A DNA stretch of 25,000 bases, from assembly GCA_002104895.1 (NCBI GenBank), contig MCFG01000158.1, positions 1-25,000 of the forward strand, given 5' to 3'. A program made the translations under genes and the position numbers. Under the pieces are notes generated by a model that had not been told where the DNA came from, did no database searches, and was given only the letters and a program-made list of their open reading frames with translations. This DNA is from Anaeromyces robustus (taxonomy: Eukaryota > Neocallimastigomycota > Neocallimastigomycetes > Neocallimastigales > Neocallimastigaceae). Positions 1,008 through 25,000 of the stretch are shown here, one piece after another. Numbering within the stretch: the first letter of the stretch is position 1; each line of letters opens with the position of its first letter.

Positions 1008-4583
<3,576 letters not shown>

Positions 4584-6718: not shown

Positions 6719-8890
6719 TTAACCATTTACAATTTTCCTTATTCTTTCTTTAATATTAATATATTGATTATTAAAATGATAACCATATTGATTATATTTT
6801 ACACTTATGGTATAAATTGATTCTCCTTCATTATTTACACTATAAACATCAGCACCATTATCAATTAAATAATTGGCCATTTCATTATTATTTGATTTTA
6901 ATAAATAAACTAATGGTGTATCACCAGATTCATCTCTGAAATTAATATCTGCATTATTATCAACTAAAAATTTTATAATTTCATTAGCATGGGATTCAAT
7001 AGCTAACATTAATAAATTTTTATTATTTTCATTTTTTAATTGATGATTTATACTTGCACCATTATTCACTAATAATATAACAATGGATAATAAATTATTT
7101 TTTATTGCATATACTAATGGGGTATTTCCATCATTATCAATGGAATTTACATCCGCTCCTCTTTCAATAAGACAATCTACAATAGATTTCTTTTCATTCT
7201 CATTATAATCATTAATTCTAATAATGGATATTAAGGGTGTTTCACCTCTTTTATTGGATACATTTAAAAATACATTATTATTACGAATTAAAGCAAATAA
7301 AATATCCATATTTTTATTATAAATCACCGTATTCAATATAGAATTACCTAATTTATCTTTAAAATTAACATCTGCTCCAATTCGAATTAAATATTTTGTG
7401 GTTTCTACATCCTTTTTTAAAACAGAATAATATAAAAGACAATTTCCATGAGAATCAATTTTATTAAAATCTAAAAATTTTATTAAAAATCGAAAAATTT
7501 CTTGATAATTTAATCGATAGGCAAGAATTAATGGTGTACTACCATTAATATCAACAACATTCATATTTATATCATTATCTATTCCATATTTCACTAAAAG
7601 TTTTACACATTCAATATCATTTAATTTAATAGCTTTTATAAATGAATAATTTCCATTAATATCTTTTTCATTAATATTTATATTTTGTTGTAATAAACAT
7701 TGAATAATATTATATTTTTTCTTATGAATGGCTAAAAATAATAAAGATACTCCATTATTATTTTTAACATTACAATTAGCACCCTTGTTTAATAAATATT
7801 GAAAAATGGAAATGTCATCATTATAAAATGCTACAATAATTGGATAATCTCCATTAATATCTTTCATATTTATATCAAAATATTCTTTAAAATCATCACA
7901 ATTAATAAAATATTTAACCATAGAAAAAGTATTAGCTTTTATCATCATATTTAATATATAATTTAAATATTGATTTTTATATTTTTCATTTTTAGAATTT
8001 TTAAGTAAAGAATCAATAATTAATTTCAATAACTCAATATTATTATTTTTTAAAGCTTCTGATAATACTGTTTCGAAATTAAAACTTTTAAAACTAAAAG
8101 TAATGTATTTTAATATATAGTCTGCTAAATGATAAATATTATTTTTAACTGCTATTTCCAATAGTTCATATTTATCAATTCTTTTTTTTATTACATTCTC
8201 ATCACTACCATCACAATTAAATAATAAATTCAATATTTCATAATTATCGGTCCCTTTTGCCTTTTTATACATATTCTCATCAATTTTTATTTTATTCTTT
8301 TCTTTACGAAAAATCAAATTTAAATGTTGGTCAGATAATGGACATTTATTTTTATAACATTTGAGTAAACTTAAAATAAAATTATTATCATAAATAATAT
8401 GTTTAAAAATTATTTTTATAATATCAGTTTGAAGAGAATCTATTAATTTACATATCATATTTGAATTTATATTATCTCTTACATTAAAACCATTATTTAA
8501 TATATACTTTAAATTCTGCTTATTTAATAAATTAATATTATATAAATATTCAATAATTTGATTATTCATAAAATTGATATCTGCCTTTCTTTCTAACAAA
8601 AAATTGGCTACCTTAAAATTATTATATCCTATGGCCGAAAAAAGTGGTGATTTTTTAACATTATTATTTTCTATTATTGAATAATTTAACGTTTCATATT
8701 GACAAATTTTTAAAAGGTAATCAATGGTTTCGACAGAAGCATTATTTTCAATGGCATTAATCAATACATCAAAGTTATTGGTATTTAAATCTTTTAATAT
8801 GACATTATTTAATTGAAGATACTTTTTTAAATCTATTGTATTATTGTTTTTAATTATTTCTAATATACTTTGTCTTCTCTGATTAAACAT
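6719..8890 (-). CDS. Ankyrin-repeat protein, tandem paralogue without Asn insert (723 aa)
   Basis: Single frame on the minus strand, ATG at 8890-8888, TAA at 6721-6719. In-frame TGA and TAA codons occur shortly upstream, so this is the first usable ATG; its context (GGT before ATG) is not the usual A-run. Residues 1-310 align by eye with the N-terminal region of the 1008-4583 protein, sharing for example HxIYDNxFI and the D-L-K motif near the start. Residues about 315-705 carry about ten ankyrin repeats. Their order matches the paralogue even at atypical repeats, such as the one reading TPL-LAY-L followed by a short repeat without the usual G-A-D/N turn. There is no signal peptide, membrane segment or enzyme motif. 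A scaffold or adaptor role is inferred from the fold only. The gene probably arose with its neighbour by tandem duplication. Confidence 0.9.
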   Translation of the reverse strand: MFNQRRQSILEIIKNNNTIDLKKYLQLNNVILKDLNTNNFDVLINAIENNASVETIDYLLKICQYETLNYSIIENNNVKKSPLFSAIGYNNFKVANFLLERKADINFMNNQIIEYLYNINLLNKQNLKYILNNGFNVRDNINSNMICKLIDSLQTDIIKIIFKHIIYDNNFILSLLKCYKNKCPLSDQHLNLIFRKEKNKIKIDENMYKKAKGTDNYEILNLLFNCDGSDENVIKKRIDKYELLEIAVKNNIYHLADYILKYITFSFKSFNFETVLSEALKNNNIELLKLIIDSLLKNSKNEKYKNQYLNYILNMMIKANTFSMVKYFINCDDFKEYFDINMKDINGDYPIIVAFYNDDISIFQYLLNKGANCNVKNNNGVSLLFLAIHKKKYNIIQCLLQQNININEKDINGNYSFIKAIKLNDIECVKLLVKYGIDNDINMNVVDINGSTPLILAYRLNYQEIFRFLIKFLDFNKIDSHGNCLLYYSVLKKDVETTKYLIRIGADVNFKDKLGNSILNTVIYNKNMDILFALIRNNNVFLNVSNKRGETPLISIIRINDYNENEKKSIVDCLIERGADVNSIDNDGNTPLVYAIKNNLLSIVILLVNNGASINHQLKNENNKNLLMLAIESHANEIIKFLVDNNADINFRDESGDTPLVYLLKSNNNEMANYLIDNGADVYSVNNEGESIYTISVKYNQYGYHFNNQYINIKERIRKIVNG

Positions 8891-9838: not shown

Positions 9839-10277
9839 ATTCCCATCATTTTCATGTTTAATAATAAAAAAATGAAAATCTATTATTTTTATTTTTTATA
9901 TGAAGATATGAAAGAATATAAAAAAAATTATTGTTTTAACATTATATAAAAATTAATGATAAAAAAATATATTTTTTAATATTATAATTATAATAAACCA
10001 CTATATAATATATAAAATATTTAAAACATTTAACACCAAATTAATATACATAGATATATTTCTTTTTATTTTTTTATTTTTTATTTTTTATTTAATTTTA
10101 TTTTTTTAATATTTACAATATATTTTATTTACAAAATTGTATTTAAATTAAATTAATAGTTAATTAATAGATACTACATTTAATCTATTATGGTATATTT
10201 AAAAGAAAATATTAATTTAAATAATATATTACTTATTAATATATGATAGATATATTATTTAATAATTCAATTCACGT
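9839..10277. other. Left edge of the hspG cluster: 3' flank of hspG copy 1
   Basis: From about 9940 rightwards the sequence is recognisable as the same 3' flank that follows the other minus-strand hspG copies. It shares the segment around TTAACACCAAATTAATA near 10029, the T-rich run near 10060-10110, ACAAAATTGTATTTAAATT near 10130, and the block AATCTATTATGGTATATTT near 10181. To the left of about 9900 this similarity fades, so the cluster boundary lies there, against the ankyrin relic. Confidence 0.65.
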
Positions 10278-10931
10278 TTATTGAATTTGAATAGAATGTT
10301 TTGGTTCTGGTTTTGGAGTTTCTTCTTTTTTATTAATAGTTACTTCTAAAACACCATTATCCATTTTAGCTTGAATATTTTCAAGATTAGCATTTTCAGG
10401 AAGTGTAAATGATCTTGAAAATTTACCATAACTACATTCTATTCTTGAATACTTTTTATTATTTTCTTTCTTAGTTTCTTTTTTAGTTTCTTCATTTTTA
10501 TTAGTTTCTTCTTTCTTAGTTTCTTCTTTTGAAGCTTCTTTATTGGCATTGGCATCTTCATTAGAATTATCAATAATAGTTTCTCTTTCACCTGAAATTG
10601 TTAAAATACGATCATCATCTGAAAGTTCCATTTTAACTTGATCCTTATTCATACCTGGTAAATCTGCATGAATATAATAATTCTTTTCATCTTCACTTAA
10701 ATTAATCTTTGGACTAAAATCTACAGATTTGAAAACATCACTATTAAAAGCCTTAGAAATTTGTTTTTCTAAAGATTCCATTGGATGGCTATAATAATAA
10801 GGATATACCGATGGGAAAGAAATCAAAGGATAATTAAAGAATTCATTTTCTAAATCATCGAATAATGAATTCCTTGATACTAAATGATTATTTCTAATAG
10901 TTAATGGATTTTCGCGAATGAATAAAGACAT
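10278..10931 (-). CDS. hspG: Small heat shock protein, hspG family copy 1 (217 aa)
   Basis: Hsp20/alpha-crystallin ATP-independent chaperone; the family holds unfolding proteins in oligomers in the cytosol or nucleus (family knowledge). Residues 1-70 form an aromatic-rich N-terminal arm with FFNYPLISFPSVYPYYY. The alpha-crystallin domain spans about 73-201, beginning FSPKINLSEDEKNYYIHADLP and ending in AKMDNGVLEVTINK (188-201), the family's A-x4-G-V-L signature. It is interrupted at about 120-161 by a Lys/Glu/Asn-rich insert with EETKKEETNKNEETKKE-type repeats. The C-terminal tail ends HSIQIQ, with the I-x-I motif (214-216) that docks neighbouring subunits in this family. Single exon. AATAAA overlaps the stop codon. 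It is divergently paired with copy 2 across a 1054-bp promoter region. Uniquely here it has Arg at 163 (YSRIE) and KETKKE where most copies have KEVKKE. Confidence 0.95.
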   Translation of the reverse strand: MSLFIRENPLTIRNNHLVSRNSLFDDLENEFFNYPLISFPSVYPYYYSHPMESLEKQISKAFNSDVFKSVDFSPKINLSEDEKNYYIHADLPGMNKDQVKMELSDDDRILTISGERETIIDNSNEDANANKEASKEETKKEETNKNEETKKETKKENNKKYSRIECSYGKFSRSFTLPENANLENIQAKMDNGVLEVTINKKEETPKPEPKHSIQIQ

Positions 10932-11025
10932 TTTTATATTTATTGGTTTGTTTTGTTTTGTTTTTTAATTTATTTTTTTTATTTCTTTGTTTGTTTGTTT
11001 TTTGTTTGTTTTTGTTCTTAAAGTT

Positions 11026-11036
11026 TTAAGCGTTTA
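11026..11036 (-). promoter_or_regulatory. Conserved core promoter motif TAAACGCTTAA of copy 1
   Basis: The motif reads TAAACGCTTAA on the minus strand, about 95 bp upstream of the ATG, directly downstream of a TATA-rich stretch and followed by an A/CAAA-rich leader. It is identical upstream of all seven copies; transcription probably starts just after it (inference). Confidence 0.6.
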
Positions 11037-11521
11037 TTTACTAAATATTTATTATTTATTATATAATAAAATTGATAATGAAGAAAATTATTTTTTAAAT
11101 GAAATTAATCGTTATTTATACTTTTTTTTTTTTTTAAATTAAAATTCAATGAATATATTTAATCATGATACATATCTACATATCTATTATATAAATATTA
11201 TGTAGTAGAATATATATCATAGAGTATATCAATAATATTAAATTTATTAATAAAATATAAATTTATTTATTAGTCTAAAAAGCATTAAAAAAAATTCTAG
11301 TAAAATTTTGTTTTATTGATTTTATTGATTTTTAAATAACTTTTTCCAAAAAGAATTTCTTTTTACATTAATTTTAATAGAAATTATGGAAAATCTTTTT
11401 TAAATATAAATATTAATATATATTAAAATTTGTTTTTATCAACCAATTAAATGTTCCATTTTTTCTATTTATAATTAATTTATAATTACAATACATTAAT
11501 ACATATTTAATATAGAAATGT

Positions 11522-11536
11522 AGAAATTTGTAGAAA
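11522..11536. promoter_or_regulatory. Heat-shock-element-like site, pair 1
   Basis: AGAAATTTGTAGAAA fits the three-unit HSE pattern GAAnnTTCnnGAA except TTG for TTC in the middle unit. A further GAA lies 8 bp upstream (11515-11517), out of the 5-bp phase. It is conserved in all four divergent regions, midway between the two genes, so it could serve both. Confidence 0.5.
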
Positions 11537-11883
11537 TTATTAATTATAAATTATAATAAAATGAATTATATAATATAATAATAATTATAAACTTTTCAAT
11601 GTATAATTCAATTTTTTTTTATTTATTATTATAATATTTTCTTATTTTCCTTTTTATTTTATTAATAATATTATTTACCCTTATTATTTTTTCCATTTTT
11701 TATTCATTTTTTTCTTATTTTCCACATATACATTTTTAATTTTTATAATTATTATCTATAAAACTTATTTATAATACTTTTTTATTTCATTCAAAAAAAA
11801 ATATAAATATGACTGATTTCTCTTAAAAATAATTTTCTTCATTATCAATTTTATTATATAATAAATAATAAATATTTAACAAA

Positions 11884-11894
11884 TAAACGCTTAA
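11884..11894 (+). promoter_or_regulatory. Conserved core promoter motif TAAACGCTTAA of copy 2
   Basis: Mirror image of the element serving copy 1, about 92 bp upstream of the ATG, again between a TATA-rich stretch and an A-rich leader containing CAAAC repeats. Confidence 0.6.
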
Positions 11895-11985
11895 AGCTTT
11901 AATAACAAAAAAAAACAAAAACAAACAAACAAAGAAATAAAAAAATAAATTAATAAATTATAACAAATCAATTAATATAAATAAA

Positions 11986-12624
11986 ATGTCTTTATTCATT
12001 CGCGAAAATCCATTAACTATTAGAAATAATCATTTAGTATCAAGGAATTCATTATTTGATGATTTAGAAAATGAATTCTTTAATTATCCTTTGATTTCTT
12101 TCCCATCAGTATATCCTTATTACTATAATCATCCAATGGAATCTTTAGAAAAACAAATTTCTAAAGCCTTTAATAGTGATGTTTTCAAATCTGTAGATTT
12201 CAGTCCAAAGATTAATTTAAGTGAAGATGAAAAGAATTATTATATTCATGCAGATTTACCAGGTATGAATAAGGATCAAGTTAAAATGGAACTTTCAGAT
12301 GATGATCGTATTTTAACAATTTCAGGTGAAAGAGAAACTATTAATGACAATTCTAATGAAGATGCCAATGCTAATAAAGAAGCTTTAAAAGAAGAAACTA
12401 ATAAAAATGAAGAAACTAAAAAAGAAGTTAAGAAAGAAAATAATAAAAAATATTCAAAAATAGAATGTAGTTATGGTAAATTTTCAAGATCATTTACACT
12501 TCCTGAAAATGCTAATCTTGAAAATATTCAAGCTAAAATGGATAATGGTGTTTTAGAAGTAATTATTAATAAAAAAGAAGAAACTCCAAAACCAGAACCA
12601 AAACATTCTATTCAAATTCAATAA
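11986..12624 (+). CDS. hspG: Small heat shock protein, hspG family copy 2 (212 aa)
   Basis: Same domain plan as copy 1: aromatic N-terminal arm, alpha-crystallin domain from about residue 73, charged insert, G-V-L signature and the terminal IQI motif. The insert is five residues shorter (KEALKEETNKNEETKKEVKKE). Distinguishing residues are Asn at 48 (YYYNHP), IND in place of IID before the insert, and Ile at 193 (GVLEVIINK), where all other copies have Thr. The coding sequence is almost identical to copy 6 (only about four base differences noticed), although their flanks belong to different subtypes; this suggests recent gene conversion. The ATG is preceded by AAATAAA. AATAAA overlaps the stop at 12620-12625. 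It converges on copy 3 across spacer A. Confidence 0.95.
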   Translation: MSLFIRENPLTIRNNHLVSRNSLFDDLENEFFNYPLISFPSVYPYYYNHPMESLEKQISKAFNSDVFKSVDFSPKINLSEDEKNYYIHADLPGMNKDQVKMELSDDDRILTISGERETINDNSNEDANANKEALKEETNKNEETKKEVKKENNKKYSKIECSYGKFSRSFTLPENANLENIQAKMDNGVLEVIINKKEETPKPEPKHSIQIQ

Positions 12625-13631
12625 ATATAAAACTGAATTATTAAATAATATATCTATCATATATTAATAAGTAATATATTACTTAAATTATTATTTTCTT
12701 TTAAATATACCATAATAGATTAAATGTAGTATCTATTAATTAATTAACTATTAATTTAATTTAAATTACAATTTTGTAAATAAAATATATTGTAAATATT
12801 AAAAAAAAATAAAAATCAAATAAAATAAAAATAAAAAATTAAAAAAAAAAAAAAAAAAATGAAAAATATACATATCTGTTTTAATTTAGTGTTAAATGTT
12901 TTAATTTTTTTTATATAATATATATTAATTTATTATAATTATAATGTTAAATTGTATTTATATATGATTAATTTTTATATAATACTAGAATATTAATATT
13001 TTTTTCCTTGTTATATTTTAAAGTTACTTATATAGAATGAAATTTTATAGCTTAATATTAATTTTTTTATAATATATGTATATTAAACCATGTATTCAGT
13101 TTTATAATACATATTATTAAAAATAAATAATAAATTATATTCTTTTTTTACTTTCTTTATATAAATATAATAATTATAATAAAAATAATAATATTTTAGT
13201 AATTGTTTAATTTAGAAGTATTATGTTTTTTCTTTTTTCTTTAAATATAAAAACTCTATACATTATAATAAAAAATTGTCTCATTTAGAAGTATTATGCT
13301 TTTTTTTTTTTTTTTCAAAGATAAAAATATATACATTATAACTATTACATTAATATTTTTTTTGTTTTTTTTTTTTTTTAAATATACATATATTTCCTTC
13401 AATTAATTTTTTTACATTATCATAATTATTTTTTAATGTTATTTTAATGATATAATTATCAATTATTTAATAATTTTATTTTTATAGAATTATTATTAAT
13501 TATAATTATATAATTATTATTACAACTATTACAATTGATATATTTAATAAAATGTAAATTCTATTAATTATAACAAATATTTTTAATAGATAATAATAAG
13601 GAATAAAAATATATTAAATTATAAAAAAGTG

Positions 13632-13724
13632 AATCGTTAAGAATAATTATAATGATAATTTAATAATGTTGGGTGGTAATATTATTAAATTTCAGAGAAA
13701 ATAAATTAATATTTTTCAACGATT
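13632..13724 (+). ncRNA. Conserved nested hairpin block, spacer A (candidate structured element)
   Basis: Outer inverted pair AATCGTT (13632-13638) and AACGATT (13718-13724) encloses an 11-bp perfect stem, AATTTAATAAT (13657-13667) with ATTATTAAATT (13681-13691), closing a G-rich loop GTTGGGTGGTAAT. The block recurs in spacers B and C with few changes, whereas the surrounding A/T DNA differs. Whether it is transcribed is unknown; it may be a structured RNA, a 3'-end/insulator element or a DNA structure. The strand shown is the one with the G-rich loop. Confidence 0.35.
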
Positions 13725-13829
13725 TCTTAAACAAAGGTTTGAAAAAATAATTTTTATAATTTAACTTTAATATTTATAATAAACTTGAATCATATAATTT
13801 ATATATCATTATAAATAAATAAATAAACA

Positions 13830-13832
13830 ATA

Positions 13833-13918
<86 letters not shown>

Positions 13919-13955
13919 AACAAAAACAACAACAATAATAATAAGAATAATAATT
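13830..13955. repeat. AAT microsatellite with AACAAAAACAAAAACA insert, spacer A
   Basis: A GATAAT/AAT tract ending in an AACAAAAACAAAAAC and AATAAGAATAATAATTCTATA segment. This end segment is the single-copy equivalent, inverted, of the higher-order unit repeated five times in spacer C. Confidence 0.85.
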
Positions 13956-14764
13956 CTATAAGACAAAATTATTAAATGATTGAATATAATTGATTTATAT
14001 TATTTTATATCATTAAAATAATATTAAAAAAATAAAATTTATTATAATACTAATGTAAAAAAAAACTAATTGAAAGTAATATATTTTAGAAAAAAAAAAA
14101 AAAACAAATTAATATTACATTAATTTTTATTTTTTATTAAAAAAATGTATAATTGTTATAATGTATATAGTTTTATCATGAAAAAAAATAAAACCGCAAT
14201 ACTTCTAAATGAAAAAAATTAATATTATTACTATATTTATATAAAGATAATAAAAGAATAATATAATAATATTTATTATTTAATATTAATATGTATTATA
14301 AAAATGAATAATATAAGCTTCAATATAATATATATATATATTAAAAAAGTTTAAATTAAACGGTTAATTTCATTCTACATAAACAACTTTAAGTTATGAA
14401 AAAAAAATTAAAAAAAAAAACAATATTCTAACATTATATTATATATATATATATAAATTAATAATGTATAAATATTATTATTATAATAAACCAATATATA
14501 ATATATAAAAAACGTTTAACACCAAATTAATACATATTTCTTTTTATTTTTTTATTTTTTATTTTTTATTTTTTTATTTAATTTTATTTTTTTTAATATT
14601 TAAAATATATTTTTTTTACAAAATTGTATTTAAATTAAATTAAAGTTAATTAATAGATACTACATTTAATCTATTATGGTATATTTAAAAGAAAATAATA
14701 ATTTAAATAATATATTACTTATTATTGTGTGATAGATATATTATTTAATAATTCAGTTTTATAT

Positions 14765-15403
14765 TTATTGAATTTGAATAGAATGTTTTGGTTCTGGTTT
14801 TGGAGTTTCTTCTTTTTTATTAATGGTTACTTCTAAAACACCATTATCCATTTTAGCTTGAATATTTTCAAGATTAGCATTTTCAGGAAGTGTAAATGAT
14901 CTTGAAAATTTACCATAACTACATTCTATTTTTGAATATTTTTTATTATTTTCTTTCTTAACTTCTTTTTTAGTTTCTTCATTTTTATTAGTTTCTTCTT
15001 TTAAAGCTTCTTTATTAGCATTGGCATCTTCATTAGAATTGTCATTAATAGTTTCTCTTTCACCTGAAATTGTTAAAATACGATCATCATCTGAAAGTTC
15101 CATTTTAACTTGATCCTTATTCATACCTGGTAAATCTGCATGAATATAATAATTCTTTTCATCTTCACTTAAATTAATCTTTGGACTGAAATCTACAGAT
15201 TTGAAAACATCACTATTAAAAACCTTAGAAATTTGTTTTTCTAAAGATTTCATTGGATAACTATAGTAATAAGGATACACTGATGGGAAAGAAATCAAAG
15301 GATAATTAAAGAATTCATTTTCTAAATCATCGAATAATGAATTCCTTGATACTAAATGATTATTTCTAATAGTTAATGGATTTTCGCGAATGAATAAAGA
15401 CAT
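14765..15403 (-). CDS. hspG: Small heat shock protein, hspG family copy 3 (212 aa, mosaic)
   Basis: Hsp20-type chaperone with the same domain order as copy 1 and an intact G-V-L signature and terminal IQI. The N-terminal half carries the variants shared only with copy 5 (YYYSYPMKS at 46-54 and Val at 61, SKVFNSD), and its upstream flank is nearly identical to that of copy 5. The insert region, however, is identical to that of copies 2 and 6 (INDNSNEDANANKEALKEE, 212-residue form). The gene therefore looks like a patchwork made by gene conversion between inverted neighbours. The start is fixed by the conserved N-terminus and the A-rich leader. It is divergently paired with copy 4 over 997 bp. 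Confidence 0.95.
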   Translation of the reverse strand: MSLFIRENPLTIRNNHLVSRNSLFDDLENEFFNYPLISFPSVYPYYYSYPMKSLEKQISKVFNSDVFKSVDFSPKINLSEDEKNYYIHADLPGMNKDQVKMELSDDDRILTISGERETINDNSNEDANANKEALKEETNKNEETKKEVKKENNKKYSKIECSYGKFSRSFTLPENANLENIQAKMDNGVLEVTINKKEETPKPEPKHSIQIQ

Positions 15404-15497
15404 TTTTATTTATATTAATTGATTTGTTATAATTTATTAATTTATTTATTTGTTTGTTTGTTTGTTTTTGTTTGTTTGTTTTTTTGTTACTAAATTT

Positions 15498-15508
15498 TTA
15501 AGCGTTTA
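15498..15508 (-). promoter_or_regulatory. Conserved core promoter motif TAAACGCTTAA of copy 3
   Basis: Minus-strand motif about 95 bp upstream of the ATG, downstream of the TATA-rich stretch and upstream of the CAAAC-repeat leader. Confidence 0.6.
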
Positions 15509-15980
15509 TTTACTAAATATTTATTATTTATTATATAATAAAATTGATAATGAAGAAAATTATTTTTTAAATGAAATAAATCATTATTTATACTTTTTTT
15601 TTAAATCAAAATTCAATGAATATATTTAATCATGATACATATCTACATATCTATTATATAAATATTATGTAGTAGAATATATATCATAGAGTATATCAAT
15701 AATATTAAATTTATTAATAAAATATAAATTTATTTATTAAACTAAAAAGCAATAAAAAAAAAATTCTAGTAAAATTTTGTTTTATTGATTTTATTGATTT
15801 TTAAATAACTTTTTCCAAAAAAGAATTTCTTTTTACATTAATTTTAATAGAAATTATGGAAAATCTTTTTTAAATATAAATATTAATATATATTAAAATT
15901 TGTTTTTATCAACCAATTAAATATTCCATTTTTTCTATTTATAATTACAATACATTAATACATATTTAATATAGAAATGT

Positions 15981-15995
15981 AGAAATTTGTAGAAA
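15981..15995. promoter_or_regulatory. Heat-shock-element-like site, pair 2
   Basis: AGAAATTTGTAGAAA, identical to the site in pair 1 and flanked by the same ATAGAAATGT sequence. Confidence 0.5.
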
Positions 15996-16304
15996 TTATT
16001 AATTATAAATTATAATAAAATGAATAATTATATTCAATTTATTTATTATCATAATATTTTCTTATTTTTCTTTTTATTTTATTAATAATATTATTTTACC
16101 TTTATTATTCTTTTACAATTTTTCTTCATTTTTTCCTATTTTACACATATGCATTTTTAATTTTTATAATTATAATCTATAAAACTTATTTATAATACTT
16201 TTTGTTTCATTCAAAAAAAATATAAATAAGACTGATTTCGCTTAAAAAAACAATTTTCTTCATTATCAATTTTATTATATAATAAATAATAAATATTTAA
16301 TAAA

Positions 16305-16315
16305 TAAACGCTTAA
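16305..16315 (+). promoter_or_regulatory. Conserved core promoter motif TAAACGCTTAA of copy 4
   Basis: Plus-strand motif about 85 bp upstream of the ATG of copy 4; the context mirrors that of copy 3. Confidence 0.6.
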
Positions 16316-16400
16316 AGCTTTAATAACAAAAAAACAAAAAAACAAACAAGCAAAAAAAATAAATTAATAAATTATAACAAAACAATTAATATAAATAAAA

Positions 16401-17021
16401 ATGTCTTTATTCATTCGCGAAAATCCATTAACTATTAGAAATAATCATTTAGTATCAAGGAATTCATTATTCGATGATTTAGAAAATGAATTCTTTAATT
16501 ATCCTTTGATTTCTTTCCCATCTGTATATCCTTATTACTATAGTCATCCAATGGAATCTTTAGAAAAACAAATTTCTAAGGCTTTTAATAGTGATGTTTT
16601 CAAATCTGTAGATTTCAGTCCAAAGATTAATTTAAGTGAAGATGAAAAGAATTTTTATATTCATGCTGATTTACCAGGTATGAATAAGGATCAAGTTAAA
16701 ATGGAATTATCTGATGATGATCGTATTTTAACTATTTCAGGTGAAAGAGAAACTATTATTGATAATTCTAATGAAGATGCCAATGCTAATAAAGAAGCTT
16801 CAAAAGAAGAAACTAAGAAAGAACCTAAGAAAGAAAATAATAAAAAATATTCAAAAATAGAATGTAGTTATGGTAAATTTTCAAGATCATTTACAATTCC
16901 TGAAAATGCTAATCTTGAAAATATTCAAGCTAAAATGGATAATGGTGTTTTAGAAGTAACTATTAATAAAAAAGAAGAAACTCCAAAACCAGAACCAAAA
17001 CATTCTATTCAAATTCAATAA
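16401..17021 (+). CDS. hspG: Small heat shock protein, hspG family copy 4 (206 aa, shortest insert)
   Basis: Same Hsp20 architecture but the shortest charged insert of the seven. It reads KEASKEETKKEPKKENNKK, eleven residues fewer than the 217-residue forms, an in-frame loss of EETKKE-type repeat units. Two core-domain substitutions are unique here: Phe at 85 (DEKNFYIHAD, Tyr elsewhere) and Ile at about 166 (SFTIPEN, Leu elsewhere). A Pro also falls inside the insert. The frame is open and the G-V-L signature and terminal IQI are intact, so it is probably functional. Several silent changes also set it apart, making it the most diverged copy in coding sequence. It converges on copy 5 across spacer B. 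Confidence 0.95.
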   Translation: MSLFIRENPLTIRNNHLVSRNSLFDDLENEFFNYPLISFPSVYPYYYSHPMESLEKQISKAFNSDVFKSVDFSPKINLSEDEKNFYIHADLPGMNKDQVKMELSDDDRILTISGERETIIDNSNEDANANKEASKEETKKEPKKENNKKYSKIECSYGKFSRSFTIPENANLENIQAKMDNGVLEVTINKKEETPKPEPKHSIQIQ

Positions 17022-17577
17022 ATATAAAATTGAATTATTAAATAATATATCTATCATACATTAATAAGTAATATATTATTTAAATTATTATTTTCTTTTA
17101 AATATACCATAATAGATTAAATGTAGTATCTATTAATTAACTATTAATTTAATTTAAATACAATTTTGTAAATAAAATTTATTGTAAATATAAAAAAATA
17201 AAATAAAATATAATAAAAGTAAAAAAAATTAAAAATAAAAAAAAATAAAAAAATGAAAAATATATATATTAATTGAGTGTTAAATGTTTTAAATTTTTTT
17301 ATATATTATATATTGATTTATTATAATTATAATGTTAAATTATATTTATATATTATTCATTTTTATATATAATACTAGAATATTAATATTTTTTTTCTTT
17401 CAATTATTTAATAATTTTATTTTTATAGAATTATTATTATAACTATTATAATTATATAATTGTTATTACAACTATTACAATTGATATATTTAAAAAAATG
17501 TAAATTCTATTAATTATAATAAATATTTATAATAGATAATAATAAGGAATAAAAATGTATTAAATTATAACAAAGTA

Positions 17578-17669
17578 AATCGTTATGAATAATTATAATG
17601 ATAATTTAATAATGTTGGGTGGTAATATTATTAAATTTTAGAGAAAAAAATTAATATTTTTCAACGAGT
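17578..17669 (+). ncRNA. Conserved nested hairpin block, spacer B
   Basis: The inner stem 17603-17613 / 17627-17637 and the G-rich loop 17614-17626 (GTTGGGTGGTAAT) are identical to spacer A. The outer AATCGTT pairs with AACGA (17663-17667) over five bases only. Function unknown. Confidence 0.35.
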
Positions 17670-17775
17670 TAAAGGTTTGAAAAAATAATTTTTAAAATTT
17701 AATAATATGTAATAAACTTATCATATAATTTATATATTATAATTAATTAATTAATAAATAAAATAAATAAATAAA

Positions 17776-17920
<145 letters not shown>

Positions 17921-18721
17921 TCTATAAAACAAAATTATTAAAGAATTGAATATAATTGATTTATATTATTTTTTATACTATTAAAATTATATTAAAAAAA
18001 TAAAATAAATTATAATACTAATGTCAAAAAATTAATTGAAAGTAATATATTTTAGGAAAAAAAAAAAAAAACTAAATTAATATTACATTAGTTTTTATTT
18101 TTTATTAAAAAAAAATGTATAATTGTTATAATGTATATAGTTTTATCTTGAAAAAAAAAAATACTTCTAAATGAAACAAATAATATTATTACTATATTTA
18201 TATAAAGATAATGAAAGAATATTATAATAATATATTTATTATTTTTATTAATATGTATTATAAAAATGAATAATAATATATGCTTCAATATAATATATAT
18301 ATAAATTAAGCAGTAAATTTCATTCTAAACAAATAACTTTAAGATATGAAAAAGAAAAAAAATTTTAAAAAAAAAAACAATATTCTAACATTATATTATA
18401 TATATATATATAAATTAACAATGTATAAATATTATTATTATAATAAACCAATATATAATATATAAAAAACGTTTAACACCAAATTAATACATATTTCTTT
18501 TTATTTTTTTATTTTTTATTTTTTATTTTTTTATTTAATTTTATTTTTTTTAATATTTAAAATATATTTTTTTTACAAAATTGTATTTAAATTAAATTAA
18601 AGTTAATTAATAGATACTACATTTAATCTATTATGGTATATTTAAAAGAAAATAATAATTTAAATAATATATTACTTATTATTGTGTGATAGATATATTA
18701 TTTAATAATTCAGTTTTATAT

Positions 18722-19375
18722 TTATTGAATTTGAATAGAATGTTTTGGTTCTGGTTTTGGAGTTTCTTCTTTTTTATTAATAGTTACTTCTAAAACACCA
18801 TTATCCATTTTAGCTTGAATATTTTCAAGATTAGCATTTTCAGGAAGTGTAAATGATCTTGAAAATTTACCATAACTACATTCTATTTTTGAATATTTTT
18901 TATTATTTTCTTTCTTAACTTCTTTTTTAGTTTCTTCATTTTTATTAATTTCTTCTTTCTTAGTTTCTTCCTTTGAAGCTTCTTTATTAGCATTGGCATC
19001 TTTATTAGAATTATCAATAATAGTTTCTCTTTCACCTGAAATTGTTAAAATACGATCATCATCTGAAAGTTCCATTTTAACTTGATCCTTATTCATACCT
19101 GGTAAATCTGCATGAATATAATAATTCTTTTCATCTTCACTTAAATTAATCTTTGGACTGAAATCTACAGATTTGAAAACATCACTATTAAAAACCTTAG
19201 AAATTTGTTTTTCTAAAGATTTCATTGGATAACTATAGTAATAAGGATACACTGATGGGAAAGAAATCAAAGGATAATTAAAGAATTCATTTTCTAAATC
19301 ATCGAATAATGAATTCCTTGATACTAAATGATTATTTCTAATAGTTAATGGATTTTCGCGAATGAATAAAGACAT
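18722..19375 (-). CDS. hspG: Small heat shock protein, hspG family copy 5 (217 aa)
   Basis: Hsp20/alpha-crystallin chaperone with the 217-residue insert form. Variants: SYPMKS and KVF in the N-terminal arm (shared with copy 3), Lys at 125 (NSNKDANAN), EEINKNEETKKEVKKE in the insert. The core domain, G-V-L signature and IQI tail are conserved. The upstream and downstream flanks are almost the same as those of copy 3 (for example GATAGATATATTATTTAAT with TTATTGTGTGATAG in the 3' flank), so the copies 3-4 and 5-6 units derive from a recent duplication. Divergently paired with copy 6 over 994 bp. Confidence 0.95.
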   Translation of the reverse strand: MSLFIRENPLTIRNNHLVSRNSLFDDLENEFFNYPLISFPSVYPYYYSYPMKSLEKQISKVFNSDVFKSVDFSPKINLSEDEKNYYIHADLPGMNKDQVKMELSDDDRILTISGERETIIDNSNKDANANKEASKEETKKEEINKNEETKKEVKKENNKKYSKIECSYGKFSRSFTLPENANLENIQAKMDNGVLEVTINKKEETPKPEPKHSIQIQ

Positions 19376-19469
19376 TTTTATTTATATTAATTGATTTGTT
19401 ATAATTTATTAATTTATTTATTTGTTTGTTTGTTTGTTTTTGTTTGTTTGTTTTTTTGTTACTAAATTT

Positions 19470-19480
19470 TTAAGCGTTTA
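19470..19480 (-). promoter_or_regulatory. Conserved core promoter motif TAAACGCTTAA of copy 5
   Basis: Minus-strand motif about 95 bp upstream of the ATG, in the same context as the other copies. Confidence 0.6.
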
Positions 19481-19952
19481 TTTACTAAATATTTATTATT
19501 TATTATATAATAAAATTGATAATGAAGAAAATTATTTTTTAAATGAAATAAATCATTATTTATACTTTTTTTTTAAATCAAAATTCAATGAATATATTTA
19601 ATCATGATACATATCTACATATCTATTATATAAATATTATGTAGTAGAATATATATCATAGAGTATATCAATAATATTAAATTTATTAATAAAATATAAA
19701 TTTATTTATTAAACTAAAAAGCAATAAAAAAAAAATTCTAGTAAAATTTTGTTTTATTGATTTTATTGATTTTTAAATAACTTTTTCCAAAAAAGAATTT
19801 CTTTTTACATTAATTTTAATAGAAATTATGGAAAATCTTTTTTAAATATAAATATTAATATATATTAAAATTTGTTTTTATCAACCAATTAAATATTCCA
19901 TTTTTTCTATTTATAATTACAATACATTAATACATATTTAATATAGAAATGT

Positions 19953-19967
19953 AGAAATTTGTAGAAA
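19953..19967. promoter_or_regulatory. Heat-shock-element-like site, pair 3
   Basis: AGAAATTTGTAGAAA, unchanged from pairs 1 and 2; imperfect three-unit HSE (TTG in place of TTC). Confidence 0.5.
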
Positions 19968-20270
19968 TTATTAATTATAAATTATAATAAAATGAATAAT
20001 TATATTCAATTTATTTACTATCATAATATTTTCTTATTTTTCTTTTTATTTTATTAATAATATTATTTTACCTTTATTATTCTTTTACAATTTTTCTTCA
20101 TTTTTTCCTATTTTTCACATATATATTTTTAATTTTTATAATTATAATCTATAAAATTTATAATACTTTTTGTTTCATTCAAAAAAATATAAATATGACT
20201 GATTTCGCTTAAAAAATAATTTTTCTTCATTATCAATTTTTTATATAATAAATAATAAATATTTAATAAA

Positions 20271-20281
20271 TAAACGCTTAA
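20271..20281 (+). promoter_or_regulatory. Conserved core promoter motif TAAACGCTTAA of copy 6
   Basis: Plus-strand motif about 88 bp upstream of the ATG. The following bases read AGCATTAACAAC, slightly different from AGCTTTAATAAC in copies 2 and 4. Confidence 0.6.
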
Positions 20282-20369
20282 AGCATTAACAACAAAAAAA
20301 CAAACAAAAAAAACAAACAAACAAAAAAATAAATTAATAAATTATAACAAAACAATTAATATAAATAAA

Positions 20370-21008
20370 ATGTCTTTATTCATTCGCGAAAATCCATTAA
20401 CTGTTAGAAATAATCATTTAGTATCAAGGAATTCATTATTTGATGATTTAGAAAATGAATTCTTTAATTATCCTTTGATTTCTTTCCCATCAGTATATCC
20501 TTATTACTATAATCATCCAATGGAATCTTTAGAAAAACAAATTTCTAAAGCCTTTAATAGTGATGTTTTCAAATCTGTAGATTTCAGTCCAAAGATTAAT
20601 TTAAGTGAAGATGAAAAGAATTATTATATTCATGCAGATTTACCAGGTATGAATAAGGATCAAGTTAAAATGGAACTTTCAGATGATGATCGTATTTTAA
20701 CAATTTCAGGTGAAAGAGAAACTATTAATGACAATTCTAATGAAGATGCCAATGCTAATAAAGAAGCTTTAAAAGAAGAAACTAATAAAAATGAAGAAAC
20801 TAAAAAAGAAGTTAAGAAAGAAAATAATAAAAAATATTCAAAAATAGAATGTAGTTATGGTAAATTTTCAAGATCATTTACACTTCCTGAAAATGCTAAT
20901 CTTGAAAATATTCAAGCTAAAATGGATAATGGTGTTTTAGAAGTAACAATTAATAAAAAAGAAGAAACTCCAAAACCAGAACCAAAACATTCTATTCAAA
21001 TTCAATAA
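20370..21008 (+). CDS. hspG: Small heat shock protein, hspG family copy 6 (212 aa)
   Basis: Same Hsp20 plan as the other copies. It is essentially the same protein as copy 2, including YYYNHP, IND and the KEALKEETNKNEETKKEVKKE insert. It differs only by Val at 12 (PLTVRNN, Ile elsewhere) and the usual Thr in GVLEVTINK. The 3' flank is of the copy 3/5 type and the 5' flank of the pair 2/3 type, unlike copy 2, so coding identity does not follow flank ancestry. AATAAA overlaps the stop. The stop lies in a short stem formed by AATTCAAT and ATTGAATT. It converges on copy 7 across spacer C. Confidence 0.95.
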   Translation: MSLFIRENPLTVRNNHLVSRNSLFDDLENEFFNYPLISFPSVYPYYYNHPMESLEKQISKAFNSDVFKSVDFSPKINLSEDEKNYYIHADLPGMNKDQVKMELSDDDRILTISGERETINDNSNEDANANKEALKEETNKNEETKKEVKKENNKKYSKIECSYGKFSRSFTLPENANLENIQAKMDNGVLEVTINKKEETPKPEPKHSIQIQ

Positions 21009-21820
21009 ATATAAAATTGAATTATTAAATAATATATCTATCACACAATAATAAGTAATATATTATTTAAATTATTATTTTCTTTTAAATATACCATATT
21101 AGATTAATGTAGTATCTATTAATTAACTATTAATTTAATTTAAATACAATTTTGTAAATAAAATATATTGTAAATATTAAAAAAAGTAAAAATTTAAATA
21201 AAATAAAAATAAAAAAATAAAAAAAAATAAAAAAAAAAAAATAAAATGAAATATATATATGTGTATTAATTTGGTGTTAAATGCTTTAATTTCTTTTATT
21301 ATATGTTATATATTGGTTTATTATAATAATGATATCATATTATATTTATAATTATTAATTTTTATATATAATGTTAGAATAATAATATTTTTTTTCCTTT
21401 TTATATCTTAAAGTTATTTATATAGAATAAAATATTATCGCTTAATATAAATTTTTTTATTCATTTTATATAATATATATTATTAAAAAATAGTAATATA
21501 TAAATTATTGTACTATACTTATACTTTTTTTCAGGATAAAACTATATACATTATAATAATTATAATAATAATTACGATGCTTTTTTTTTTCAGGATAAAA
21601 TAATATGTATTATAACAATTATATGTTTTTTTTTTCTTATTGATAATAGTAATAATAATAAAACTAATGTAATATTAATTTAGTTTTTTTTTTTTTTTCT
21701 AAAATATATTACTATCAATTTTTTTTTATTAGTATAATTAATTTTATTTTTTTAATATTATTTTAATGATATAAAAAATAATATAAATCAATTATATTCA
21801 ATTATTTAATAATTTTGTCT

Positions 21821-21860
21821 TATAGAATTATTATTCTTATTATTATTGTTTTTGTTTTTG

Positions 21861-21955
<95 letters not shown>

Positions 21956-21995
21956 TATAGAATTATTATTCTTATTATTATTGTTTCTGTTTTTG

Positions 21996-22090
<95 letters not shown>

Positions 22091-22130
22091 TATAGAATTA
22101 TTATTCTTATTATTATTGTTTTTGTTTTTG

Positions 22131-22222
<92 letters not shown>

Positions 22223-22331
22223 TATAGAATTATTATTCTTATTATTATTGTTTTTGTTTTTGTTTTTATTATTATTATTATTATTATTATTTATAGAATT
22301 ATTATTCTTATTATTATTGTTTTTGTTTTTG

Positions 22332-22401
<70 letters not shown>

Positions 22402-22412
22402 TTCATTTATAA
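21821..22412. repeat. Higher-order repeat: five units of a CAAAAA/AAT composite
   Basis: Units begin with TATAGAATTATTATTCTTAT, then TATTATTGTTTTTGTTTTTG and a TTA run of varying length. Starts are at 21821, 21956, 22091, 22223 and 22292, so periods are 135, 135, 132 and 69 bp. The second unit has a TTTCTG variant. Units 1-4 expanded as whole blocks, with unit 4 having a much shorter TTA run. Frames through it encode only Leu/Phe- or Ile-rich homopolymers and are not genes. Confidence 0.95.
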
Positions 22413-22495
22413 TAATATATAAATTATATGATTCAAGTTTATTACAAATATTAAAGTTAAATTATAAAAATTATTTTTTCGAACTTTGTTTAAGA

Positions 22496-22588
22496 AATCA
22501 TTGAAAAATATTAATTTATTTTCTCTGAAATTTAATAATATTACCACCCAACATTATTAAATTATCATTATAATTATTCTTAACGATT
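22496..22588 (-). ncRNA. Conserved nested hairpin block, spacer C (opposite strand)
   Basis: Inverted copy of the block in spacers A and B. The inner stem 22529-22539 / 22553-22563 is perfect and the loop (22540-22552) reads GTTGGGTGGTAAT on the minus strand. The outer pair is AACGATT (22582-22588) with AATCATT (22496-22502). On the minus strand this is AATCGTT with AATGATT, so the one change relative to A gives a G-U pair and keeps the outer stem. Confidence 0.35.
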
Positions 22589-23469
22589 CACTTTGTTATA
22601 ATTTAATATATTTTTATTCCTTATTATTATCTATTAAAAATATTTGTTATAATTAAAATAACATTAAAAAATAATTATGATAATGTAAAAAAAATTAATT
22701 GAAGGAAATATATGTATATTTAAAAAAAAAAAAAAAAAAACAAAAAAAATATTAATGTAATAGTTATAATGTATATAGTTTTATCTTTGAAAAAAAAAAA
22801 AAAAAAAAAAGCATAATACTTCTAAATGAGACAATTTTTTATTATAATGTATAGAGTTTTTATATTCAAAGAAAAGAGAAAAAATAATACTTCTAAATTG
22901 AACAATTACTAAAATATTATTATTTTTATTATAATTATTATATTTATATAAAGAATGTAAAAAAAGAATATAATTTATTATTTATTTTTAATAATAAGTA
23001 TTATAAAACTGAATACATACTTTAATATACATATATTATAAAAAAATTAATATTAAGCTATAAAATTTCATTCTATATAAGTAACTTTAAAATATAACAA
23101 GAAAAAAATATTAATATTTTAGTATTTCATATAAAAATTAATAATATTATAATTATAATAAATTAATATATATTATATAAAAAAAAATTAAAACATTTAA
23201 CACTAAATTAAAACAGATATGTATATTTTTCATTTTATTTTTTTTTTATTTTTTTATTTTTATTTTATTTAGATTTTTATTTTTTTTTAATATTTACAAT
23301 ATATTTTATTTACAAAATTGTATTTAAATTAAATTAATAGTTAATTAATTAATAGATACTACATTTAATCTATTATGGTATATTTAAAAGAAAATAATAA
23401 TTTAAGTAATATATTACTTATTAATATATGATAGATATATTATTTAATAGTAATTCAATTCATATATAT

Positions 23470-24123
23470 TTATTGAATTTGAATAGAATGTTTTGGTTCT
23501 GGTTTTGGAGTTTCTTCTTTTTTATTAATAGTTACTTCTAAAACACCATTATCCATTTTAGCTTGAATATTTTCAAGATTAGCATTTTCAGGAAGTGTAA
23601 ATGATCTTGAAAATTTACCATAACTACATTCTATTTTTGAATATTTTTTATTATTTTCTTTCTTAACTTCTTTTTTAGTTTCTTCTTTTTTATTAATTTC
23701 TTCTTTCTTAGTTTCTTCCTTTGAAGCTTCTTTATTAGCATTGGCATCTTTATTAGAATTATCAATAATAGTTTCTCTTTCACCTGAAATTGTTAAAATA
23801 CGATCATCATCTGAAAGTTCCATTTTAACTTGATCCTTATTCATACCTGGTAAATCTGCATGAATATAATAATTCTTTTCATCTTCACTTAAATTAATCT
23901 TTGGACTGAAATCTACAGATTTGAAAACATCACTATTAAAAACCTTAGAAATTTGTTTTTCTAAAGATTCCATTGGATGGCTATAATAATAAGGATATAC
24001 CGATGGGAAAGAAATCAAAGGATAATTAAAGAATTCATTTTCTAAATCATCGAATAATGAATTCCTTGATACTAAATGATTATTTCTAATAGTTAATGGA
24101 TTTTCGCGAATGAATAAAGACAT
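23470..24123 (-). CDS. hspG: Small heat shock protein, hspG family copy 7 (217 aa, mosaic)
   Basis: Intact Hsp20 chaperone with the 217-residue insert form and terminal IQI. The first about 55 codons (YYYSHPMES) and the upstream flank match copy 1. From Val at 61 (SKVFNSD) through the insert (NSNKDANANKEASKEETKKEEINK) it matches copy 5, with one extra change, KKEETKKE for KNEETKKE. The 3' flank again resembles copy 1 (TTAATATATGATAG). This is a copy-1-type locus with a copy-5-type internal tract. Its upstream region is cut by the window end; by analogy with pair 1 a plus-strand partner should start near 25178. Confidence 0.95.
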   Translation of the reverse strand: MSLFIRENPLTIRNNHLVSRNSLFDDLENEFFNYPLISFPSVYPYYYSHPMESLEKQISKVFNSDVFKSVDFSPKINLSEDEKNYYIHADLPGMNKDQVKMELSDDDRILTISGERETIIDNSNKDANANKEASKEETKKEEINKKEETKKEVKKENNKKYSKIECSYGKFSRSFTLPENANLENIQAKMDNGVLEVTINKKEETPKPEPKHSIQIQ

Positions 24124-24216
24124 TTTTATATTTATTGGTTTGTTTTGTTTTGTTTTTTAATTTATTTTTTTATTTCTTTGTTTGTTTGTTTTTTGTTTGT
24201 TTTTGTTCTTAAAGTT

Positions 24217-24227
24217 TTAAGCGTTTA
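24217..24227 (-). promoter_or_regulatory. Conserved core promoter motif TAAACGCTTAA of copy 7
   Basis: Minus-strand motif about 95 bp upstream of the ATG, with the same CTTAAAACTTTAAG context downstream as in copy 1. Confidence 0.6.
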
Positions 24228-24713
24228 TTTACTAAATATTTATTATTTATTATATAATAAAATTGATAATGAAGAAAATTATTTTTTAAATGAAATTAAT
24301 CGTTATTTATACTTTTTTTTTTTTTTTAAATTAAAATTCAATGAATATATTTAATCATGATACATATCTACATATCTATTATATAAATATTATGTAGTAG
24401 AATATATATCATAGAGTATATCAATAATATTAAATTTATTAATAAAATATAAATTTATTTATTAGTCTAAAAAGCATTAAAAAAAATTCTAGTAAAATTT
24501 TGTTTTATTGATTTTATTGATTTTTAAATAACTTTTTCCAAAAAGAATTTCTTTTTACATTAATTTTAATAGAAATTATGGAAAATCTTTTTTAAATATA
24601 AATATTAATATATATTAAAATTTGTTTTTATCAACCAATTAAATGTTCCATTTTTTCTATTTATAATTAATTTATAATTACAATACATTAATACATATTT
24701 AATATAGAAATGT

Positions 24714-24728
24714 AGAAATTTGTAGAAA
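24714..24728. promoter_or_regulatory. Heat-shock-element-like site, pair 4
   Basis: AGAAATTTGTAGAAA, the fourth unchanged copy of the imperfect three-unit HSE. Confidence 0.5.
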
Positions 24729-25000
24729 TTATTAATTATAAATTATAATAAAATGAATTATATAATATAATAATAATTATAAACTTTTCAATGTATAATT
24801 CAATTTTTTTTTACTTATTATTATAATATTTTCTTATTTTTCTTTTTATTTTATTAATAATATTATTTACCTTTATTATTTTTTCCATTTTTTATTCATT
24901 TTTTTCTTATTTTACACATATACATTTTTAATTTTTATAATTATTATCTATAAAACTTATTTATAATACTTTTTTATTTCATTCAAAAAAAAATATAAAT

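Follow-up and report, generated by a model that had tools for sequence, protein, structure and literature searches.

Divergent twin Hsp20 genes with a shared spacer motif in an alternating array of the gut fungus Anaeromyces robustus

At the hsp-16 locus of Caenorhabditis (T27E4.2/.3/.8/.9) and at F44E5.4/F44E5.5, near-identical paralogs lie in opposed orientation, with mirrored arms of 124-160 bp on either side of an unmirrored spacer. Gene conversion has been proposed for these inverted pairs, and C. briggsae carries a second copy of one divergent pair; the main contention of that study is that the arms have been maintained from species to species (PMC1803023). In Diptera, an inverted pair of hsp70 genes is described as a fundamental and probably ancient unit, whose coding regions are homogenised by conversion and whose 3' flanks are less so (PMC3071340). 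The anaerobic fungi of the Neocallimastigomycetes have unusually many HSP20 genes, many of which are heat-induced (PMC10512342). Here we analyse a stretch of 25,000 nucleotides of one such fungus, Anaeromyces robustus (contig MCFG01000158.1, positions 1 to 25,000; hereafter the window), that holds an array of Hsp20 genes. The window is the left end of a contig that we call C66 (C66:1-25000) in an assembly of 70.2 Mb and 769 contigs; genome-wide counts are lower bounds throughout.

The window contains seven intact Hsp20 open reading frames (ORFs) of 206-217 amino acids in the strict order -+-+-+- (A1 to A7; Table 1), and their coding sequences (CDSs) are 96.6-99.5% identical in pairwise alignments. 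Two of the seven proteins were scanned and matched the PF00011 alpha-crystallin domain at 77.3 and 72.4 bits (cut-off 20.8); the other five are taken to be Hsp20 proteins too, because their CDSs are at least 96.6% identical to every other of the seven. An earlier note on this DNA had described seven near-identical, strictly alternating genes with steps of 4472, 3972 and 4748 bp between the minus-strand starts, and the starts at 10931, 15403, 19375 and 24123 agree with it. The plus-strand mate of A7 presumably lies to the right of the window end. We read 10 Hsp20 copies on C66, 5 on contig C49 and 8 on C299. We consider it probable that such an array consists of divergent twin Hsp20 pairs around a shared control site, that the pair is what is copied, and that exchange between copies homogenises the genes and flips spacers while the gene order is kept. 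The flipped spacers, a conversion tract, the shared motif and the genome-wide pattern on which we draw go beyond the earlier note.

How far does the mirror symmetry extend? We examined six divergent spacers, three in the window and three beyond it, on C49 and where the C66 array continues. All six are mirrored at their ends, as had been claimed, with arms of 183-207 bp at 84.4-97.5% identity in gapped alignments and end-arm scores of 106-185 against a shuffle maximum of 30. Their middles (579-667 nt) score only 13-19 in all six cases, against shuffle maxima of 19-25, and the claim that the whole 15 kb folds on itself has to be given up. The convergent spacers had been described as mirrored around their centres. 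End arms are indeed present in all three of the window (about 375 bp at 84.8% in S2, 446 bp at 84.2% in S3, 885 and 830 bp at 74.0% in S1), whereas the centres lie at or little above the null (14 versus 15 in S1; 42 versus 29 in S2 and 37 versus 30 in S3, both weakly above it). End arms are also present in the convergent spacer SB1 on C49 (86.9%); S4 on C66 and SB2 on C49, each of which holds a truncated gene fragment, have internal inverted matches only.

The inverted blocks are not confined to the CDSs, and the flanks are mirrored too. Between opposite-strand copies of the window, identity in 100-bp bins is 79.5 and 78.9% over the first 200 bp upstream (shuffled: 65.0 and 60.7%) and 92.8 and 86.9% over 200 bp downstream (shuffled: 62.5 and 64.1%); at 200-300 bp upstream there is no excess (58.8% versus 60.1% shuffled). 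The mirror comprises each gene, some 200 bp on its promoter side and 375-885 bp beyond its 3' end, not the entire 15 kb. The surprise that long inverted repeats should be stable here is weakened accordingly, since unmirrored spacers part the arms and comparable heat-shock palindromes have been described (PMC1803023). As a separate observation, S3 includes an ATT repeat of about 560-590 bp (21801-22388), far longer than the triplet repeats of S1 (13829-13954) and S2 (17752-17920).

The middles of D1, D2, D3 and of DB1 on C49 repeat one another directly, with scores of 446-559 in the direct and 22-26 in the inverted orientation (null maxima 25-28); D2 and D3 are 97.8% identical over 1000 columns. 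This direct-only matching points to tandem copying of the divergent pair and supports the proposal that one divergent pair plus one convergent spacer is the duplicating unit. D5, which separates the final two C66 genes that were read, has mirrored arms and an unrelated middle.

In alignments, spacers of both kinds occur in both orientations. The convergent spacer S3 is inverted relative to S1 and S2, and three blocks of S1 match it in that orientation: 12639-13452 of S1 corresponds to 23449-22648 of S3 (93.8%), 13564-13954 to 22656-22268 (91.8%), and 13823-14127 to 21958-21660 (92.5%). We read the polarity of S3 from the middles, because the mirrored end arms match both ways. The middle of S3 scores 483 and 197 when inverted, versus 53 and 91 when direct. 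Among the divergent spacers, DB2 on C49 matches D1, D2, D3 and DB1 in inverted orientation only (418-447 versus 21-23 direct), and its promoter arms are swapped, the minus-strand gene B3 having the plus-type arm and the plus-strand gene B4 the minus-type arm. The four divergent spacers of C299 are oriented +,+,-,-. These flips could be explained by exchange between inverted twins, which would leave the gene order unchanged, and they may have arisen in place.

Sequence has also passed between copies on opposite strands. In the minus-strand gene A3, the 150-nt 5' flank, the first half of the CDS and the 150-nt 3' flank are all 100% A5-like, while the second half of the CDS is 99.7% identical to A6(+) and 99.4% to A2(+), versus 93.6% to A5. 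Judged from this site pattern, an inverted, opposite-strand copy has left a two-sided conversion tract in A3. The aligned block of the window copies has 72 gap-free polymorphic sites. In run-length tests, the opposite-strand pair B1(-)/B4(+) is significant among the 15 copies of C66 and C49 (global p = 0.0005), as is A2/A3 in the window set (global p = 0.0455); same-strand pairs score as well.

What might the two genes of a pair share? Most of the divergent spacers read contain a short motif, usually near the middle, which in one form is the 15-mer TAGAAATTTGTAGAA. That exact form occurs 11 times in 70.2 Mb, always upstream of Hsp20 genes (11/11), and the reversed control not at all. All six array spacers examined contain a single copy of a 13-mer, GAAATTTGTAGAA, picked up by a scan for heat shock elements (HSEs) with one mismatch allowed, which is also found in the spacers of the pairs C767a, C767b and C506; the window has 4 occurrences, with 0.02 expected. 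All six array spacers have two GTAGAA units at a 10-bp step, i.e., with the spacing TTCn7TTC, and the C73 spacer is the sole one with three units at successive 10-bp steps. The step pair GTAGAA-N4-GTAGAA occurs 28 times genome-wide, 20 times upstream of Hsp20 genes (4 of them in a doubled palindrome on C73) and 8 times elsewhere, with 15 occurrences of the reversed control. At one off-target place, on C234, no ORF of at least 90 amino acids is chaperone-like.

One of the two motif forms, 15-mer or step pair, is present in 16 of the 18 divergent spacers read. The density of GTAGAA is 2.47/kb in these 18 spacers; it is 0.21/kb in nine convergent spacers and 0.36/kb in the flanks of the arrays (77 kb). 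In relative position, the motif centre falls between 0.3 and 0.7 of the spacer length in 15 of 16 cases; in all 16 it is 347-485 nt away from one start codon or from both (in C65 the end of the mirrored arm was used in place of the left start codon). Since the motif was discovered in these spacers, its matches there are no independent test; its absence elsewhere is. The middles of the array spacers cannot be aligned with those of C506, C767, C65, C120, C299 and C73 (best score 38, null 33), and a search across spacer families for common 10-mers with at least three G/C gave nothing but an A/C-rich repeat. In the step-type HSE, nTTCn7TTCn7TTC, TTC/GAA units follow one another at a 10-bp step, and enrichment of a shorter form at Hsf1 peaks of Candida has been reported (PMC4894976). 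The genome encodes DNA-binding domains of heat shock factor (HSF; 8 matches, among them domains on C252, C134 and C712). The motif is HSE-like, a candidate HSF site that may drive both genes. A variant, TAGAAAATTGTAGAA, was noted at C45:133113-133127; the Hsp20 gene some 0.4 kb downstream of it is single and has no partner.

Is the arrangement peculiar to the arrays? From 68 matches of one query we compiled 50 Hsp20 genes, leaving out the truncated same-strand fragments C66:31624 and C49:100743 and the stop-containing copies of C221 and C4. Forty of the 50 belong to divergent pairs; the other ten comprise seven single genes, one on C49 without a mate in view and two with a mate position that is unreadable. 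Within 5 kb there are 31 Hsp20 neighbours: 20 in divergent and 11 in convergent orientation, with no same-strand case. Both sets, the 50 genes and the 31 neighbours, take in the C73 palindrome, without which the neighbours number 18 divergent and 10 convergent. Dockerin genes were used for comparison (the best 150 of 683 candidates, merged to one entry per gene): 11 of their 14 neighbours within 10 kb are on the same strand, and the divergent pattern is therefore not common to that gene family. Inverted arms are present in all 12 dispersed Hsp20 pairs that were read (81-99%). Hsp70 genes form two divergent near-identical pairs with identical scores, on C35 and C765. The arms of the C35 pair are 99.1% identical over the 2470 nt read, around a 0.8-kb centre without an inverted match, and its spacer has a single TTCTAATTAATTCTA. 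We take the Caenorhabditis genes F44E5.4 and F44E5.5 to be hsp-70 genes as well.

These observations can be joined into one scheme. Each pair consists of two near-identical transcription units (the CDS and its 3' flank, preceded by some 200 bp that comprise promoter and 5' leader) that diverge from an unmirrored centre of about 600 bp. On heating, HSF would become active, bind the shared site and drive both identical genes. In anaerobic fungi, heat induces genes of both HSP20 and HSP70 type (PMC10512342), and induction in these relatives supports the idea that HSF binds the site and that both genes of a pair respond jointly. If the site were lost from a copy, both genes would suffer, and selection would keep pairs; the pair and not the gene would be the copied unit, since neither gene could do without the common site. 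Whole pairs would be gained or lost by unequal exchange between copies on the same strand, and exchange between opposite-strand copies would result either in gene conversion or in inversion of the intervening spacer, a flip that would probably cost little. The -+-+ order would be stable under recombination because all these exchanges leave it intact. It is tempting to go further and imagine a recombination-closed array, in which any exchange gives the same -+-+ order, the motif works in either orientation and spacers flip repeatedly in living cultures, an arrangement used for Hsp20 and Hsp70 alike as a general route to a high and uniform dose of stress genes; we regard this extension as speculative and rather doubtful.

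Several observations weigh against the scheme of twin pairs around a shared HSF site. SB1 on C49 shows no clear polarity relative to S3 (107 direct, 112 inverted). The pairwise homoplasy index (PHI) test for recombination is weak (p = 0.035 for the 15 copies, 0.065 for the seven of the window). Of 24 genes in dispersed pairs, just 9 have their mate as the best third-position match, and exchange or conversion is therefore not confined to mates. The motif of C65 is off-centre (0.81 of the spacer), and two of the 18 spacers read, C165a and C165b, contain neither motif form; in one of these two, GTAGAA occurs three times, spaced differently. The window spacers contain no exact three-unit HSE, which is why the HSE scan was made with one mismatch, and in the motif this mismatch falls in the middle unit. 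A full three-unit step-type element is likewise absent from the window spacers, which have two exact units and an extra GAA 8 bp away. Among the 18 spacers, exact three-unit HSEs of the inverted type are found only in C120, C304 and one C299 spacer. Neither Hsp70 spacer contains the 15-mer, the GTAGAA step pair or an exact three-unit HSE. A relaxed form of the motif, TAGAARWTTSWAGAA, was rejected as unspecific (26 matches, 16 of them at Hsp20 loci; control 19).

The motif might then be an element other than an HSF site, or a leftover of common ancestry, which we think somewhat unlikely. The lack of exact three-unit HSEs in the window spacers favours this, and several of the motif-bearing spacers are homologous copies, so that their matches are not independent. 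However, the same 15-mer stands in spacers whose middles otherwise do not align (the arrays versus C506, C767a and C767b), its TTC-N7-TTC spacing is that of the step-type element and of the short form from Candida cited above (PMC4894976), and the C73 spacer has three step-type units. As to the flips, whole pairs may have been re-inserted or duplicated in inverted orientation instead of being inverted in place, a possibility that we take seriously while judging it the less probable origin. The swapping of promoter arms together with the middle in DB2 fits an inversion of the whole pair, and two adjacent units of C299 are flipped together. S3, on the other hand, is flipped between the unflipped D3 and D4, as exchange between its flanking twins would have it, and in the flipped unit 3 of C299 the difference at codon 2 (T in the minus gene, S in the plus gene) is the same as in unflipped units.

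Could each pair have arisen by its own recent inverted duplication, with little exchange afterwards? Third-position identity between mates is 94.5% in C506 and 99.5% in C767a, with best non-mates at 71-77%, and for 6 of the 12 dispersed pairs the mates form strongly supported groups, in a tree with an unsettled bootstrap. Such an origin is nonetheless unlikely: the spacer middles are homologous across pairs within the window arrays and across C299, C120, C304 and C165, and these pairs therefore descend from older pairs; conversion tracts exist; and many independent events would be needed, with no intact same-strand neighbour within 5 kb. An assembly artefact, in which near-identical inverted repeats were misjoined and some copies or spacer orientations are unreal, strikes us as improbable for the arrays, although fold-back joins may exist in this assembly. 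C66 (approximately 30.2-35.3 kb) and C49:99118-104580 share about 5.3 kb at 95.9-99.5%, with outer flanks that do not match in the parts read, which may reflect a recent duplication, haplotypes or a misjoin. The stretch C73:131072-138717 is a spacerless palindrome (99.5%) that runs to the contig end with four Hsp20 genes; it resembles a fold-back join and probably is one, and two of its four genes may be unreal. The window copies, however, are parted by non-palindromic centres and differ at the 72 sites mentioned above, D1 and D2 are about 6% apart and the inverted blocks of S1 and S3 6-8% apart, as expected of distinct DNA, and divergent pairs occur on nine further contigs (eight without C73).

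In Table 1 we list the features of the array. To its left lie two ankyrin-repeat genes, 1008-4583 and 6719-8890, both on the minus strand, the former with long asparagine tracts. A search of the window for tRNA and Rfam RNA found none. In the Hsp20 proteins (202-217 amino acids; e.g., 10278-10931) the alpha-crystallin domain is split by a lysine/glutamate-rich stretch whose length varies by copy.

Table 1. Features of the Hsp20 array in the window and the Hsp70 twin pairs (window coordinates unless a contig is given)
Feature	Coordinates	Strand	Basis or remark
A1, Hsp20 gene, 217 aa	10278..10931	-	ORF; PF00011 E=1.1e-21
D1, divergent spacer	10932..11985	.	arms 10933-11129 / 11793-11981 mirrored 87.3%; middle 658 nt unmirrored
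Motif TAGAAATTTGTAGAA in D1	11521..11535	+	two GTAGAA, 10-bp step, from 11520
A2, Hsp20 gene, 212 aa	11986..12624	+	ORF; PF00011 E=3.5e-20
S1, convergent spacer	12625..14764	.	arms 12625-13509 / 13935-14764 mirrored 74%
A3, Hsp20 gene, 212 aa, mosaic	14765..15403	-	3' CDS half A2/A6-like; A5-like on either side
A3 conversion tract, approximate outer limits	14765..15203	-	site pattern; half-CDS identities
D2, divergent spacer	15404..16400	.	arms 15404-15610 / 16205-16400 mirrored 87.5%; middle a direct repeat of D1, D3
Motif TAGAAATTTGTAGAA in D2	15980..15994	+	motif scan
A4, Hsp20 gene, 206 aa	16401..17021	+	ORF; alignment
S2, convergent spacer, oriented like S1	17022..18721	.	arms 17022-17396 / 18367-18721 mirrored 84.8%
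A5, Hsp20 gene, 217 aa	18722..19375	-	ORF; alignment
D3, divergent spacer	19376..20369	.	arms 19377-19571 / 20181-20369 mirrored 89.8%; 97.8% to D2
Motif TAGAAATTTGTAGAA in D3	19952..19966	+	motif scan
A6, Hsp20 gene, 212 aa	20370..21008	+	ORF; alignment
S3, convergent spacer, inverted versus S1 and S2	21009..23469	.	block alignments, middle scores
A7, Hsp20 gene, 217 aa	23470..24123	-	ORF; alignment
D4, divergent spacer, cut by window end	24124..25000	.	99.3% to D1 over 878 columns
Motif TAGAAATTTGTAGAA in D4	24713..24727	+	motif scan
Hsp70 divergent near-identical twins	C35:265901-271638; C765:163046-169513		

The earlier note had named the genes hspG, after a Dictyostelium gene. Dictyostelium shares with the host an AT-rich genome and alpha-crystallin genes. 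The name is a misfit, for the host is an anaerobic gut fungus with fungal dockerins: 150 of 150 scored among the 683 PF02013 candidates are over the cut-off, and 14 control genomes have no candidate. We take dockerins of this kind to be a mark of anaerobic gut fungi. On their account Dictyostelium is rejected as the host, and in support a myosin II fragment has 60 PDB matches listed that are muscle and non-muscle myosins of animal type, in a table without organism names; judged from names and codes, no myosin II of Dictyostelium is among them. Dictyostelium genes named hspG1, hspG2, hspG4, hspG11 and hspG12 appear in PMC6584373 and PMC12405889.

How does this array compare with the described systems? 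As in the Caenorhabditis pairs, opposed paralogs have mirrored arms and an unmirrored spacer (six of six array spacers; inverted arms in 12 of 12 dispersed pairs), and exchange between arms is indicated by the A3 tract and the run-length tests, with the PHI test at only p = 0.035 and 0.065. Unlike those pairs, the arrays here are larger, with opposite-strand tracts, flipped spacers, one short motif in most spacers and a fungal host. The dipteran pairs are similar in that inverted twins are the unit and undergo conversion; they differ in being Hsp70, not Hsp20, and in having tandem and dispersed copies also. The study of HSP20 genes in anaerobic fungi gives gene counts and expression; the terms promoter and heat shock element are absent from its main text, and we found no gene arrangement there (PMC10512342). 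Compared with the step-type HSE (PMC4894976), the putative HSF site here has two fixed GTAGAA units (three in C73) within a longer conserved word.

Among the titles listed in searches of the literature, none concerns divergent heat-shock pairs or a TAGAAATTTGTAGAA-type motif in anaerobic fungi, and we know of no established promoter grammar for this fungal group. The 15-base motif, which in 70 Mb stands only upstream of Hsp20 genes, offers a handle on heat-shock control in gut fungi, and the flipped spacers open a direct way to test for ongoing exchange. The architecture is known from worms and flies; the motif of most twins here was not found described. The comparison suggests that inducible chaperone genes repeatedly settle as head-to-head twins, in worms, in flies and now in a gut fungus, and the reason that we propose is that a shared control site would make the pair the unit, in an alternating order that would survive every exchange.

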